NCBI RefSeq assembly: GCF_024105665.1
Contig: NZ_JAAAMK010000001.1
Location: forward strand, 310,001-374,000
Direction of reading: 5' to 3'
Source: Aliihoeflea aestuarii
GTDB taxonomy: Bacteria; Pseudomonadota; Alphaproteobacteria; Rhizobiales; Rhizobiaceae
Length of the DNA: 64,000 nt
In this document: positions 53,902-59,893 of the stretch, one piece after another
How the letters are laid out: every line of letters starts with the position of its first letter
Numbering within the stretch: the first letter of the stretch is position 1
Translations under genes and position numbers: made by a program
The notes under the pieces: model-generated
The model's input: the letters and a program-made list of their open reading frames with translations, nothing else
Database searches by the model: none
Told to the model about the DNA's origin: nothing

Positions 53902-54924
<1,023 letters not shown>

Positions 54925-55073
54925 TCGGTACGTTTGCTTTTGGCAAGTCGATGCATAGCCGTTTCGTTTCCCAAGGGTTCAGGGCAAACTGGCGGCTGCT
55001 CGTGCCTCCTCCTCTTTCCTTTGATCCCGCCCCGCGGCTATAGTCGCGCATATCCAATATTCAGTGGTGATTG

Positions 55074-56507
55074 ATGCCTGCTTCCAAGCCCCAAGACCGC
55101 GCGCCGGCGAAGGCCACGCGCACTCGCGTTCCGCAATTCGTCAAGAATGTTCGGGGGGTCAAGAACTGGAAGGAAGCGGGCGGCTGGCTCGACTGGCGCG
55201 GCATCGAGGACATCGAGTGCATCACGCCCGATCAGGCGGGCGTCGCGCGCGGCAAGATGATGCCGTCGAAGAAATTCACGTCGAATACGTCGCTCGCCCT
55301 GCCCTCCGCCGTTTTCATGACGACGATTTCCGGCTCTTATCCCGATGACGGCAACGGCTTCACGTATCCCGAAGACGACGGCGATCTGAAGCTCCTGCCG
55401 GATCTTTCGACGCTTTCGGTCGTGCCGTGGGAAAGCGATCCGACCGCACAGGTGATCTGCGATCTCGTTCATCAGGACGGGCGCATGGTCGAGTTCACGC
55501 CGCGCAACGTGTTGCGCAACGTGGTCGAGGCTTATGCGCGCCATGGGCTCAAGCCCGTGGTCGCGCCCGAGATCGAATTCTACCTCGTGCGCAAGAATCC
55601 GGACCCGGATTATCCGCTGGTGCCGCCGATCGGCCGCTCCGGCCGCGCGATCGCAGGCGGACAGGGTTATTCGATCGCCGGCGTCAACGAATTCGACGAG
55701 CTGATCGATGACATCTACCATTTCTCCGAGGTTCAGGGGCTGGAGATCGACACGCTGATCCACGAGGAAGGCGCGGGACAACTCGAAATCAATCTTCGCC
55801 ATGGCGACCCTATCGAGCTTGCCGACCAGGTGTTCCTGTTCAAACGCACCATCCGCGAAGCGGCCATGAAGCACGACACTTACGCGACCTTCATGGCCAA
55901 GCCGATTCAGGGACAGCCCGGCTCGGCCATGCACATCCACCAGTCGATCATCGACGCCAAGACCGGCAAGAACGTCTTCACCGCCGCCGACGGCTCGGAG
56001 ACTGACACGTTCGCCCACTTCATCGGCGGTTTGCAACGGCACATTCCGAACGCACTGGTGATGCTTGCGCCCTACGTGAACTCCTATCGCCGCCTGACGC
56101 AGGCATCCGCTGCCCCGGTGAATACGATGTGGGGCTACGACAACCGCACGACCGCCTTCCGCGTGCCGCGTTCCGATCCGGCCGGACGGCGCGTGGAAAA
56201 CCGCATTCCGTCCTCGGATGCCAACCCCTATCTGGCGCTCGCCGCCTCGCTCGCCTGCGGCCTCATCGGCATATTGCGCGAGACGCGCTGCGACGCGCCG
56301 ACCGGTTCCAGCGTTAACGAGGACGAGATCGAATTGCCGCGCGGCCTTCTGGAAGCCGTAGAGCTTTTCGAGGGCGACGACGACCTCACCGGCATCCTCG
56401 GCCAGCAATTCGTCTCCACCTATGCGGCAATCAAGAAGGCGGAGTTCGAGACCTTCATGGAAGTGATCAGCCCGTGGGAGCGGGAGTATCTGTTGTTGAA
56501 TGTGTAG
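55074..56507 (+). CDS. puuA: Gamma-glutamylputrescine synthetase-like protein, copy 2
   Basis: This 477-residue glutamine synthetase-family enzyme is predicted to gamma-glutamylate putrescine. GS motifs are VVAPEIEFYLVRKNPD, EEGAGQLEINLRHGD, GSAMHIHQSI, and RVPRSDPAGRRVENRIPSSD. The ATG opens MPASKPQDRAPAK. The stop codon is TAG at 56505-56507, which overlaps the beginning of an inverted repeat bounding a four-helix-bundle gene. The puuB-type oxidase follows beyond that element, so the element appears to interrupt a puuA-puuB operon. Confidence 0.88.
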   Translation: MPASKPQDRAPAKATRTRVPQFVKNVRGVKNWKEAGGWLDWRGIEDIECITPDQAGVARGKMMPSKKFTSNTSLALPSAVFMTTISGSYPDDGNGFTYPEDDGDLKLLPDLSTLSVVPWESDPTAQVICDLVHQDGRMVEFTPRNVLRNVVEAYARHGLKPVVAPEIEFYLVRKNPDPDYPLVPPIGRSGRAIAGGQGYSIAGVNEFDELIDDIYHFSEVQGLEIDTLIHEEGAGQLEINLRHGDPIELADQVFLFKRTIREAAMKHDTYATFMAKPIQGQPGSAMHIHQSIIDAKTGKNVFTAADGSETDTFAHFIGGLQRHIPNALVMLAPYVNSYRRLTQASAAPVNTMWGYDNRTTAFRVPRSDPAGRRVENRIPSSDANPYLALAASLACGLIGILRETRCDAPTGSSVNEDEIELPRGLLEAVELFEGDDDLTGILGQQFVSTYAAIKKAEFETFMEVISPWEREYLLLNV

Positions 56508-56935
56508 GGAAAAGGGAAGAGGGAGTAGGGAAATAGGGAATGAGCGAAAGAGCCGGCTCATATCGTGACCTGATCGTTTGGCAACAAGCTATGGATTTGG
56601 CGGTTGCGGGTTATGCCGAAACGAGGCAGTGGCCCAAGGAGGAACTTTACGGACTGACCGGTCAAGTCCGGCGTTCGGCCACCTCCGTTCCCTCAAACAT
56701 TGCTGAAGGCTATGGGCGCGAGGTTCGCGGTTCCTATCTGCAGTTTCTGCGAATTGCCCAAGGCTCTCTCAAAGAACTTGAAACTCAGCTTTTGATCGCA
56801 CAGCGCGTTGGCCTATCACAGGCTCAAGCGATAGAGCCATTGATGGAAGCTTCGGCGAACATCGGCCGACTCTTGCGGGCACTGTTGCGAAAGCTCGGAT
56901 CGACTTAGTTCCCTCTCCCTACTTCCCTTTTCCCT
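56506..56935. mobile_element. IVS-like element: inverted-repeat-bounded four-helix-bundle gene
   Basis: The unit is bounded by an imperfect inverted repeat: AGGGAAAAGGGAAG at 56506-56519 pairs with 56922-56935 (14 bp), AGGGAG at 56520-56525 with 56915-56920, and AGGGAA at 56527-56532 with 56909-56914. This gives 26 bp with two single-base bulges. The only gene inside encodes a protein of the 23S rRNA intervening-sequence (S23/IVP) family. In rRNA such units fold into a long hairpin removed by RNase III. Here the unit lies between puuA and puuB, with the puuA stop codon in its left edge. Mobility is inferred from structure; no transposase is present. Confidence 0.7.
56540..56908 (+). CDS. Four-helix bundle protein (23S rRNA intervening-sequence protein family)
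   Basis: The 122-residue product belongs to the S23/IVP four-helix-bundle family: it begins SYRDLIVWQQAMDLAVAGY and includes GLTGQVRRSATSVPSNIAEG, the usual signature, and SLKELETQLLIAQRVG. Members are encoded within insertions of 23S rRNA genes in several bacteria, and related Avd proteins accompany diversity-generating retroelements. The biochemical function is unknown; the family forms pentameric barrels with basic surfaces, so nucleic acid binding is suspected. It is not part of polyamine metabolism. Base composition is slightly lower in GC than the flanking operon. Confidence 0.9.
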   Translation: MSERAGSYRDLIVWQQAMDLAVAGYAETRQWPKEELYGLTGQVRRSATSVPSNIAEGYGREVRGSYLQFLRIAQGSLKELETQLLIAQRVGLSQAQAIEPLMEASANIGRLLRALLRKLGST

Positions 56936-56954
56936 TCCTGACCCAGAGCCCTCC

Positions 56955-58250
56955 ATGCCGTCCACTCCCTACCAATCCCCCATTTCCCCCGGCGTCTCGT
57001 GGTACGAGGCAAGTGTCGGCGAGCGGCCGGAATATCCCCCGCTCGACGGCAGCGTCACGGCCGATGTCGTTATCATCGGCGGCGGATTCACCGGATTGTC
57101 GGCCGCGACCCATCTCGCCAAGGCAGGCACCAATGTCGTCCTTATCGAGCAATACCGTTTCGGCGATGGCGCATCGGGCCGAAATGGTGGGCAGCTCAAT
57201 ACCGGCCAGCGCGCCTGGCCGGAGGATATGGAGGACGAACTCGGCTTCACGCGGGCCAAGGCTCTGTTCGATCTGGCCGAGGAAGCGAAGGCGCATCTTT
57301 TCGAATTCTCCAGAGCCAACGGCATCGAGATCGACTACGTGCCCGGTCACATGTCTGTCGTCCACAAGAAGCGCTATCTGAAGGACTATCAGGCGCATCC
57401 TGCCATCATGGCGGAACGCTATGGCTATCCGCACATCACATGGATGGACGCGCAGGAGACCGCAAAGCGGCTCGGTTCGACGCATTATTTTGGCGGGGTG
57501 CGCGATACCGGAACCGGCCATATCCATCCGATGAAGCTCGTCATCGGCACCGCGCGGGTCGCGGCTGCGGCAGGCGCGAAGCTTTATGAGAATACGTCCG
57601 CGACAAGCATGAAGAGCGAGGGCGGCAAGGTTCGCGTGACCACCGCAAAAGGCACGATCACGGCCGACAAGGCGCTGATCGCCGTCAATGCCTATGGCGG
57701 CGATCTCGAGCCGAAAAGCGCGGCGCACATCATGCCGATCGGTTCCTTCATCGGCGCGACCGTGCCGCTGGGCGACGACACCGACGTGCTGCCGGGCGGC
57801 GAGAGTGTGGACGATTCACGCTTCGTCGTGCGCTATTTTCGTCGTTCGAAGGACGGACGGTTGCTGTTCGGCGGGCGCGAAATCTATTCGACGGGCGACC
57901 CGAAAGGCATTGCCGACCACATCAGACGGCAGATCACGGAGGTCTATCCGCAATTGAAGGACGTGGAACTTACGCATCAATGGGGCGGTTACGTGGGCAT
58001 CACCATGCCGCGCAAGCCCTATGTACGTGAGGTCATGCCGAACGTCATCTCCGTCGGCGGTTATTCCGGACATGGCGTCATGCTCTCGAACTTCATGGGT
58101 AAGCTCTACGCCGAGACGGTGGCGGGAAACCGGGATCGGCTGAAACTCTTCGAGGATCTGAAAATCCCCGCCTTCCCCGGCGGGCGGGCGTTGCGCGCGC
58201 CGCTGCTCTTTCTTGCCCTCAACTGGTACGCGTTGCGCGACCGGTTTTGA
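56955..58250 (+). CDS. puuB: FAD-dependent oxidase, gamma-glutamylputrescine oxidase-like
   Basis: This 431-residue DAO-fold flavoprotein most likely oxidises gamma-glutamylputrescine to the aldehyde, the second step of the Puu pathway. The FAD site is DVVIIGGGFTGLSAATHLAK near residue 37, with the GASGRNGGQLN stretch following. A C-terminal GGYSGHGVMLSN motif is typical of the PuuB/OrdL group. Placement beyond puuA supports the assignment, although the intervening element separates the two by 447 bases. A strong bidirectional terminator follows. Confidence 0.88.
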   Translation: MPSTPYQSPISPGVSWYEASVGERPEYPPLDGSVTADVVIIGGGFTGLSAATHLAKAGTNVVLIEQYRFGDGASGRNGGQLNTGQRAWPEDMEDELGFTRAKALFDLAEEAKAHLFEFSRANGIEIDYVPGHMSVVHKKRYLKDYQAHPAIMAERYGYPHITWMDAQETAKRLGSTHYFGGVRDTGTGHIHPMKLVIGTARVAAAAGAKLYENTSATSMKSEGGKVRVTTAKGTITADKALIAVNAYGGDLEPKSAAHIMPIGSFIGATVPLGDDTDVLPGGESVDDSRFVVRYFRRSKDGRLLFGGREIYSTGDPKGIADHIRRQITEVYPQLKDVELTHQWGGYVGITMPRKPYVREVMPNVISVGGYSGHGVMLSNFMGKLYAETVAGNRDRLKLFEDLKIPAFPGGRALRAPLLFLALNWYALRDRF

Positions 58251-58256
58251 AACGCG

Positions 58257-58288
58257 AAAAGGCCGCCCGAGAACCGGGCGGCCTTTTC
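58257..58288. terminator. Bidirectional intrinsic terminator after puuB
   Basis: GGCCGCCCG at 58261-58269 pairs perfectly with CGGGCGGCC at 58275-58283 around a five-base loop. Four T residues follow on the plus strand and four on the minus, so it can also end the convergent small exported-protein gene. Confidence 0.9.
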
Positions 58289-58308
58289 ATTTTCAGTCGC
58301 CCAATGGC

Positions 58309-58584
58309 TTAGCGACCGCCTGGATATTCCCACGGGAAGACAGGGGTCGAAAATTCACGCCCTTCCGGCGCATTCGCAGACCACATTTCGCCGGTCCGCA
58401 TTTCACCCATCGACGCCGTGGTCATCCGGTCGATATTCGAAGACTGGGTGCGCTGATCGACGTAGCTCGATGCGGCTTCTTCCACATTGGCGCTGAAATC
58501 TCCCAGCATCAGCGGAGGGTCCATCGCGAAAACGGGACCCGAAACGAGAAGCGCGGCAGCGGCGGTCAAAGTATAAATTTTCAT
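58309..58584 (-). CDS. Small exported protein of unknown function (91 aa)
   Basis: The 91-residue product has a signal peptide (MKIYTLTAAAALLVSGPVFA) followed by a short hydrophilic region ending FPWEYPGGR. An AAGGGA ribosome-binding site precedes the ATG. I do not recognise a family. The reading frame further upstream lacks a signal and was not used. It is convergent with puuB across the shared terminator. The 181 bases upstream, to the KAS III-type gene, show no other gene. Confidence 0.65.
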   Translation of the reverse strand: MKIYTLTAAAALLVSGPVFAMDPPLMLGDFSANVEEAASSYVDQRTQSSNIDRMTTASMGEMRTGEMWSANAPEGREFSTPVFPWEYPGGR

Positions 58585-58765
58585 CTTACATTCCCTTCGT
58601 GGATCAAATTCTTTTCCGAGCCGGCCTCTGCCAGCCAAAGAAAGTCACGAGGGTTGCGAGAGCAAAGTTTCGCATGCGTCTGATTTCGTAAATCACGAAA
58701 AATTTAGCGGCATCTAATGAACGAAGTTCGTTTTCATCGCTTTGCGCGCGACCTCTCCGCTCTGC

Positions 58766-59893
58766 TCAATCAGCCTTGCGCACAATGACGCTGCCGGCCG
58801 AATAACCGGCGCCGAACGAGCAGATGACGCCAAGGCTGCCGGCCGGCAAATCCTGTGAAAAACGCGAGAAGGCGATGATGGAGCCGGCTGACGAGGTGTT
58901 GGCGAATTCCTGCAAAACGTTCGGCTGCTCCTCGCGCGTCGGCGCGCGGCCCATCACTTTCGCGCCGATCAGGTCGTTCATGCCCTTGTTGGCCTGATGC
59001 AGCCACAGGCGCGAAAGCTGTGAGGGCTCGATGCCCTCGTCGGCCAGATGCGACAGCATCATGTCCGCGACCATCGGCACGACCTGCTTGAAGACCTTGC
59101 GGCCTTCCTGCCGGAACTGCATGTCGCGCCGATCTTCCATGTGTCCTTCGCGCGTGCGGCGTAGGAAGCCGTTATTGTTGCGGATATTGTTGGAGAACTC
59201 CGTCAGGCAGCGCGTTGACAGGATTTCATAAATGTTGGCCGAGGTTGCGTCTTCGAGCCGCTGGAGGACGACGGCTGTGCACACGTCGCCGAAGATGAAA
59301 TGGCAGTCCCGGTCGCGCCATTCCTGATGGCCGGAGGTGATTTCAGGATTGACCATAAGGATCGCGCGGGCCGAGCCGGAGCGGATCATGTCGGCGGCTG
59401 CCTGGATGCCGAAGGTCGCCGACGAACAGGCGACGTTCATGTCGAAGGCGAAGCCCTTGATGCCGAGCGCTTCCTGTACCTCGATGGCGATGGCCGGATA
59501 GGCGCGCTCATGGTTGGACGCCGCGCAGATGACCGCATCGATATCCGCCGCCGTCAGACCGGCCTCGTCCATCGCCTTCTTCGCCGCGTCGACCGCGATT
59601 TCGCCCATGATCGAGATTTCGTCGTCGCCGCGCTCCGGCAGGCGCGGATGCATCGTCTCCGGATCGAGGATGCCGGCCTTTTCCATCACGTAGCGACGCT
59701 CGATGCCGGACGCCTTGACGATGAATTCCTCGCTCGACATCGCCATCGGCTCACGCGTACCGGCCTCGATCTCGTCGGCGTGCAAGCCGTTCTGCCGGGC
59801 GGCATAGTCGTTGAAGGAAGCGACCAGTTCGGCGTTGGTGATGATCTCGCTCGGCATGAAGATGCCGGTGCCGGTGATGGCGACCTTGTGCAT
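58766..59893 (-). CDS. 3-oxoacyl-ACP synthase III family protein (FabH-like)
   Basis: This 375-residue KAS III-type thiolase-fold enzyme carries the catalytic cysteine in MNVACSSATFG, the histidine in LHQANKGMN and the asparagine in EFANTSSAGS. It is longer than housekeeping FabH, and the opening MHKVAITGTGIFMPSEIITN with EEFIVKASGIERRYV is that of the second FabH-like subgroup common in proteobacteria. It probably condenses an acyl-CoA with malonyl-ACP, but the precise substrate is unknown. The ATG at 59893 is used because the family begins there. A family A repeat lies in the 329-base upstream gap shared with zwf. Confidence 0.88.
   Translation of the reverse strand: MHKVAITGTGIFMPSEIITNAELVASFNDYAARQNGLHADEIEAGTREPMAMSSEEFIVKASGIERRYVMEKAGILDPETMHPRLPERGDDEISIMGEIAVDAAKKAMDEAGLTAADIDAVICAASNHERAYPAIAIEVQEALGIKGFAFDMNVACSSATFGIQAAADMIRSGSARAILMVNPEITSGHQEWRDRDCHFIFGDVCTAVVLQRLEDATSANIYEILSTRCLTEFSNNIRNNNGFLRRTREGHMEDRRDMQFRQEGRKVFKQVVPMVADMMLSHLADEGIEPSQLSRLWLHQANKGMNDLIGAKVMGRAPTREEQPNVLQEFANTSSAGSIIAFSRFSQDLPAGSLGVICSFGAGYSAGSVIVRKAD

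Follow-up and report, generated by a model that had tools for sequence, protein, structure and literature searches.

Structures have been solved for proteins of the S23 or IVP family (2gsc, 2rld), but the literature credits them with no known function (PMC4990558). The Xanthomonas campestris member is a pentamer, and in the rRNA intervening sequence (IVS) of Coxiella, tandem heptamers lie at the stem that RNase III cuts (PMC4990558). Heptamer repeats form a separate literature. GGGAATC arrays are dispersed in the genome of X. campestris and partly paired as inverted repeats, and the 2015 account treats them as quadruplex-forming sequences whose role "still remains to be elucidated" (PMC4692102). 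A further heptamer, TAACTGA, has been reported (PMC4679880), and homology between the S23 profile PF05635 and Avd, a subunit of diversity-generating retroelements (DGRs), has been noted (PMC10053308).

The terms S23, four helix and xcc0516 are absent from the main text of PMC4692102, and passages of PMC11270868, PMC10910872 and PMC8700078 hold no link between S23 genes and heptamer arrays outside rRNA. More widely, no paper linking the two outside rRNA was found in the accessible part of the open-access literature. The link between S23 genes and heptamer arrays is what appears to be new here, each being already known separately. The S23 unit described below is, on balance and with some reserve, best regarded as the coding representative of a hairpin family whose dispersed members are mobile or copied.

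The S23 gene between puuA and puuB

The window is a stretch of 64,000 nucleotides from Aliihoeflea aestuarii. Within it, a 122-aa S23 (23S_rRNA_IVP) four-helix-bundle gene, assigned by profiles and a structural model, occupies positions 56540..56908 of the plus strand. On the same strand it is preceded by a puuA-like gene of the glutamine-synthetase family (55074..56507) and followed by a puuB-like gene, assigned by profile matches, for an FAD-dependent oxidoreductase (56955..58250). Both names are provisional, as the NCBIfam equivalog matches fall below the curated cut-offs. The first-pass annotation had placed an S23-family gene between these two, and profile searches bear this out. The ORF matches PF05635 at E 2.5e-34, with 118.1 bits against a gathering score of 33.8, in a search where no other profile matched the protein at E 0.001; it also matches TIGR02436 at E 1.2e-33.

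The gene is framed by a purine-rich left arm of 7/8-nt repeats (56506..56532, plus strand) and a pyrimidine-rich inverted copy as right arm (56909..56935, plus strand). In a gapped reading, the arms pair over 14+6+6 bp with one-base bulges at 56526 and 56921; ungapped, the inverted repeat spans 56506-56535 and 56906-56935 and is 80% complementary. The first base of the left arm is the A in the TAG stop codon of puuA (56505-56507), which the arm overlaps. Both the bulged repeat and the stop codon within its left arm had been described at first reading, and the pairing exceeds chance: its complementarity score is 21.5, against a control 99th percentile of 13.5 and a control maximum of 21 (324 spans from 108 loci, the window locus among them). 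The left arm also reads as a degenerate 7-nt tandem array (56506-56540, 4.9 copies of AGGGAAA, 78% matches). With an array threshold of 9, the left arm passes at 10, whereas the right arm, at 7, fails alone. The window copy is a worn member among S23 elements.

This S23 gene was the only one found in the 4.11-Mb, 25-contig genome. There is no Rfam rRNA match within 54000-59000, and the element sits between two protein genes. A known RNA family for the element was rejected: the single Rfam match lies elsewhere, at the end of puuB (58149-58296), where a sub-threshold resemblance to the Brucella sRNA BSR0602 (23.7 bits, the cut-off being 191) is probably due to chance. An anti-phage defence gene was rejected with no PADLOC match at E 0.1, as was a phage origin with no match at E 1e-5 among 50,697 phage records.

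The AlphaFold model of the window S23 has four helices and a pLDDT of 95.5. Its best structural matches are 2gsc (TM 0.89) and 2rld, and the predicted fold is that of the solved PF05635 members. Avd (4dwl) follows at TM 0.80 and 11% identity, and complexes of the DGR reverse transcriptase match with weaker E-values. Avd is a pentamer. The source of 2gsc is X. campestris, a genome with GGGAATC repeats, which is a suggestive hint of a link between S23 and heptamers.

Inverted tandem arrays around S23 genes

A set of 160 S23 elements, 143 of them with distinct coding sequence, was drawn from a genome-contig scan (best 80 kept) and from 199 genomes of the window's family, 62 of which contain S23. 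The same kind of repeat ends that the first reading had proposed looking for surrounds most homologous genes. In 96 of 108 elements, the flanks are more complementary than the control 99th percentile; the other 12, four of them from Bacteroidota, show no inverted repeat above control and count against the hairpin-family reading. The array threshold is passed by 100 of 143 left arms and 107 of 143 right arms, and of these 207 arms a single one has a period other than 7 or 8.

Where both arms pass (n = 81), the period is equal in 80, and the unit agrees with at most one mismatch in 73, compared with 735 of 4000 cross-pairings. The array unit thus varies from locus to locus, yet matches from arm to arm. 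Own arms match better than swapped arms at the nuo, grasp and mixed sites (0/2000 permutations each) and weakly better at the puu site (p 0.0095). At the mms site, where the test is without power, own arms are no better than swapped ones (p 0.43), a result also set against the hairpin-family reading.

A broader sample points the same way. PF05635 was searched in 398 genomes, 62 of which gave a match, and 58 usable genes came from 61 loci, 30 best-scoring and 31 hand-chosen, mostly outside the window's family; at least five loci are shared with the first set. An inverted repeat above control is present in 34 of the 58 and at least one array in 39; of 54 arms, 52 have a period of 7 and two a period of 8. 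The 24 elements without such a repeat again weigh against the hairpin-family reading.

Some S23 copies carry in-frame stops (G080:C11, G169:C17, G143:C11 and G039:C114), which indicates that elements can decay in place. Several draft contigs end at arrays or within about 60 nt of them (G060 C35 and C40, G199 C29). Arrays may break short-read assemblies and hence be undercounted.

Coding, non-coding and empty forms at gene junctions

The element opens with a short array of tandem units, 7 or 8 nt long and mostly G-rich, which is followed by a loop and then by the same array in inverted form. It occurs in two forms, one non-coding (about 80-230 nt) and one with an S23 gene in the loop. Both lie at gene 3' ends, mostly at junctions within an operon, and in several junctions the array itself supplies the stop codon. 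The 143 elements are distributed over nuoC-nuoD (45), puuA-puuB (40), ATP-grasp/alpha-E (16), acyl-CoA dehydrogenase-mmsB (10, with coding S23 elements in Mesorhizobium) and other sites (32), most of these junctions being named provisionally from peptide ends.

Description of the window element as a lone unit does not hold, given hairpins of the same type elsewhere in its genome. At least five further non-coding hairpins lie at gene junctions there, four of them with the GGGA-type unit of the window element. Besides the one between aroC and ribB, these are two-armed clusters, the first separating rpsM from rpsK, the second at the junction of an acyl-CoA dehydrogenase gene with an mmsB-like gene, and the third following the gene for a [2Fe-2S] subunit. 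An octamer hairpin (L248, about 1370-1465 of contig C19, outside the window) separates a CoA-ligase gene (sucD-like) from a 2-oxoglutarate dehydrogenase gene (sucA-like). Most were found by a GGGA pattern, L248 and the aroC-ribB hairpin (also) by other scans. The pattern gave 22 hits against 17 for a backward control; since that control can match the same arrays, only two-armed clusters were counted. A midpoint split of four candidates (L354, L360, L358 and L350) gave no excess over shuffles. L354 has two arms and folds as a long hairpin (z -2.6), and the other three were not counted as hairpins.

The dispersed non-coding hairpins share their arm unit with the coding copy in this genome and in congener G148, in a comparison that is partly circular and in which G148 and G060 lay outside the GGGA scan. 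In G060, five of six hairpins are not best matched to the arms of its own S23; they mostly have GTGAATG units, whereas the S23 arms have GGCAGTC.

The puuA-puuB junction was surveyed at 51 loci (the window, 30 others and the next 20), leaving aside G195, G198 and G067, whose puu-site S23 had already been collected. Three loci were unclassifiable. The remaining 48 comprise 9 with S23, 15 with a non-coding inverted-repeat hairpin in gaps of 84-227 nt (two of which, L129 and L130, lack the usual units), 13 empty sites of at most 60 nt and 11 others. The search for relatives without the element, suggested at first reading, therefore succeeded, and the empty sites include congener G200. In G060, G199 and G148 (L112, L113 and L114), the gap measures about 580 nt and apparently holds a small gene in place of the S23 element, with a C-terminus that we take to be RelE/ParE-like.

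The aroC-ribB junction shows similar variation within one genus. It is empty in G060 and G200, holds a GTGAATG hairpin in G148 and G199, and holds the GGGA-type hairpin in the window's own genome. In the filled forms, as read off the sequences, the array supplies the stop codon. No target-site duplication is visible by eye at this junction, where the flanks have diverged, and neither such a duplication nor a fresh transposition was seen among the elements compared, which counts against the hairpin-family reading. Two plasmid copies in Calothrix brevissima NIES-22 were rejected as separate insertions, both lying within a larger shared block.

The S23 tree mostly sorts by site, with 11 label changes against 77.9 when shuffled (few columns), so that moves are rare or old; this too counts against the hairpin-family reading. 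Four copies at other sites (L002, L009, L143 and L145) nest within the puu clade. Within the window's genus, S23 occurs at the puu site in G000 and at the nuo site in G148 and G060, and is missing from G199 and G200. The three copies represent three distant lineages at two sites.

Selection on the protein and on the arms

Across 26 independent pairs, kept at dS 0.1-1.2, S23 dN/dS has a median of 0.097 and a range of 0.02 to 0.74. S23 is under purifying selection. For the arms, RNA-level selection on pairing should leave G-U mismatches in excess of A-C mismatches. Over 134 elements, G-U and A-C mismatches number 300 and 311 (49 and 52 counted per element), and among 26 co-directional non-coding hairpins they number 32 and 30. 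By site, the respective counts are 109 and 83 at puu, 44 and 33 at grasp, 55 and 54 at nuo, 25 and 51 at mms, and 67 and 90 elsewhere. As there is no overall G-U excess, and taking the expectation from general background, we think that the two arms are kept alike chiefly at the level of DNA, through copying between arms or through the mode of movement.

These counts bear on the strongest alternative, which is that the element is an mRNA intervening sequence. Its arms would pair in the puu transcript and RNase III would cut the stem, separating the puuA, S23 and puuB messages, with the stem kept for that function. Several observations are in line with this. A 481-nt RNA containing the element folds with z -3.6 and the five hairpins of its own genome with z -2.5 to -4.9; sense genes were found both before and after 109 of 131 elements, in a run from which only these counts and the window row were used, as many arm starts reached into upstream genes; and RNase III cuts the corresponding stem in the rRNA element of Coxiella, which likewise has tandem heptamers (PMC4990558). 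The puu site taken alone leans towards G-U, which keeps an RNA reading alive there. The mms site is reversed, however, and the general excess is missing. Moreover, the 41 two-armed hairpins, with neighbour strands assigned by a GC3 heuristic, comprise 29 between co-directional and 12 between convergent genes, and convergent genes offer no cistrons to separate. We therefore regard this explanation as unlikely, and think that RNase III cutting of the stem, if it occurs, is a by-product. The first-pass proposal of a mobile mRNA intervening sequence is supported as regards insertion, which is visible in the empty junctions, and is not supported overall as regards a maintained RNA intron, of which the mismatches give no general sign.

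Co-occurrence of arrays and S23 genes

Exact two-unit arrays of three classes were counted in the same 199 genomes, with S23 arms subtracted for 56 of the 62 S23 genomes. Further arrays beyond the S23 arms are present in 46 of 62 genomes with S23 and in 18 of 137 others. With one genome per genus, the figures are 22 of 31 and 12 of 78 (p 5e-8). The class of the S23-arm unit also predicts the class of the dispersed arrays for class A (9/9 against 11/47) and class B (14/16 against 10/40), relatedness being ignored. Class C (GCGAATA), likewise with relatedness ignored, does not track the S23 arms (5/9 against 19/47, p 0.48), a result counted against the hairpin-family reading. None of the 18 array-bearing genomes without S23 yielded the gene in a profile search either, so hairpins outlive S23 or do not need it, and perhaps spread without it; this as well counts against the hairpin-family reading. 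A plus-then-minus order of arrays was found in 43 of 51 clusters at 48 loci, a figure that is biased because regions were partly picked by eye for such pairs, and some of the loci are orthologues (L234/L242, L235/L240).

A regulatory system could produce part of this pattern. S23 would bind its own heptamer in hairpin-bearing transcripts and tune their stability or translation, and the window copy would be a regulator under feedback. The presence of one coding copy beside several non-coding hairpins of the same unit in this genome and in G148 is consistent with such a role, as are the constraint on the protein and the resemblance of its model to Avd. Against this, sites differ among congeners and are often empty, the 18 genomes just mentioned keep arrays without S23, and the arms bear no overall sign of selection for RNA pairing. 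Regulation of this kind appears improbable.

We give still less credence to passive repeats. Here polymerase slippage would lengthen heptamer runs at the ends of genes, template switching would generate the inverted copies, and S23 would be no more than a hitchhiker in some of them. Slippage has already been proposed for heptamers (PMC4692102), and array copy number does differ between close orthologues, for example L015 and L059 (dS 0.19). However, most S23 genes from distant phyla are flanked by such arms, unlike random spans nearby, arrays and S23 co-occur by genus, and the protein is under purifying selection. Intrinsic terminators were rejected on operon-internal positions alone.

A proposed hairpin family with a coding member

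Under the favoured reading of a dispersed hairpin family with a protein-coding member, hairpin elements would move or be copied from site to site, and the S23 gene would depend on the host operon for its transcription. Its product, which like 2gsc is probably pentameric, may bind the arrays and help hairpins to spread or persist. A process acting on DNA would maintain arm identity, for instance template switching at the hairpin or a hairpin-dependent form of transposition.

A bolder extension, which we put forward as a doubtful conjecture, would unite S23 elements with the heptamers of many bacterial phyla in one mobile class. The S23 pentamer would recognise its own 7/8-nt array in a hairpin, as ssDNA or RNA, and, possibly aided by a reverse transcriptase or another enzyme in the manner of Avd, place copies of hairpins at further gene ends. 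The rRNA IVSs would then be members that landed in rRNA.

If S23 is the coding partner of heptamer repeats, two old puzzles would merge into a single testable question: a role could be proposed for each, and a possible origin for the rRNA intervening sequences. A further consequence is that gene junctions in operons for central metabolism and ribosomal proteins are subject to recurrent insertion.

Comparison with known systems

Avd of diversity-generating retroelements (4dwl, 8ube) appears to share the fold of the window S23, judging from the model, and differs in sequence, the two being barely a ninth identical over 4dwl. REPIN/RAYT systems likewise pair small hairpins, scattered through a genome, with a partner protein that this genome encodes (PMC3116915). 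The partner here is a four-helix bundle rather than a tyrosine transposase, and the arms are tandem 7/8-nt arrays. A REPIN/RAYT-like organisation was found in the window's own genome and in G148; across genomes it extends to unit classes A and B, not to C.

The heptamers of Xanthomonas and Nostoc, GGGAATC and GGGGA(C/T)T, are likewise 7-nt G-rich arrays near stop codons and between aligned genes, and they are rare between divergent genes (PMC4692102); here, none of the 41 hairpins has divergent neighbours. Periods of both 7 and 8 occur here, the 8-nt units being a departure from those heptamers.

The rRNA IVSs of Coxiella and Leptospira share with the window element an S23 gene within a terminal inverted repeat. 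The likeness drawn at first reading is confirmed by the tandem heptamers of the Coxiella stem (PMC4990558). The window element differs in lying in a protein operon rather than inside an rRNA gene, and expression of the Coxiella S23 in vivo is reported to be unlikely, whereas the operon S23 is strongly conserved.
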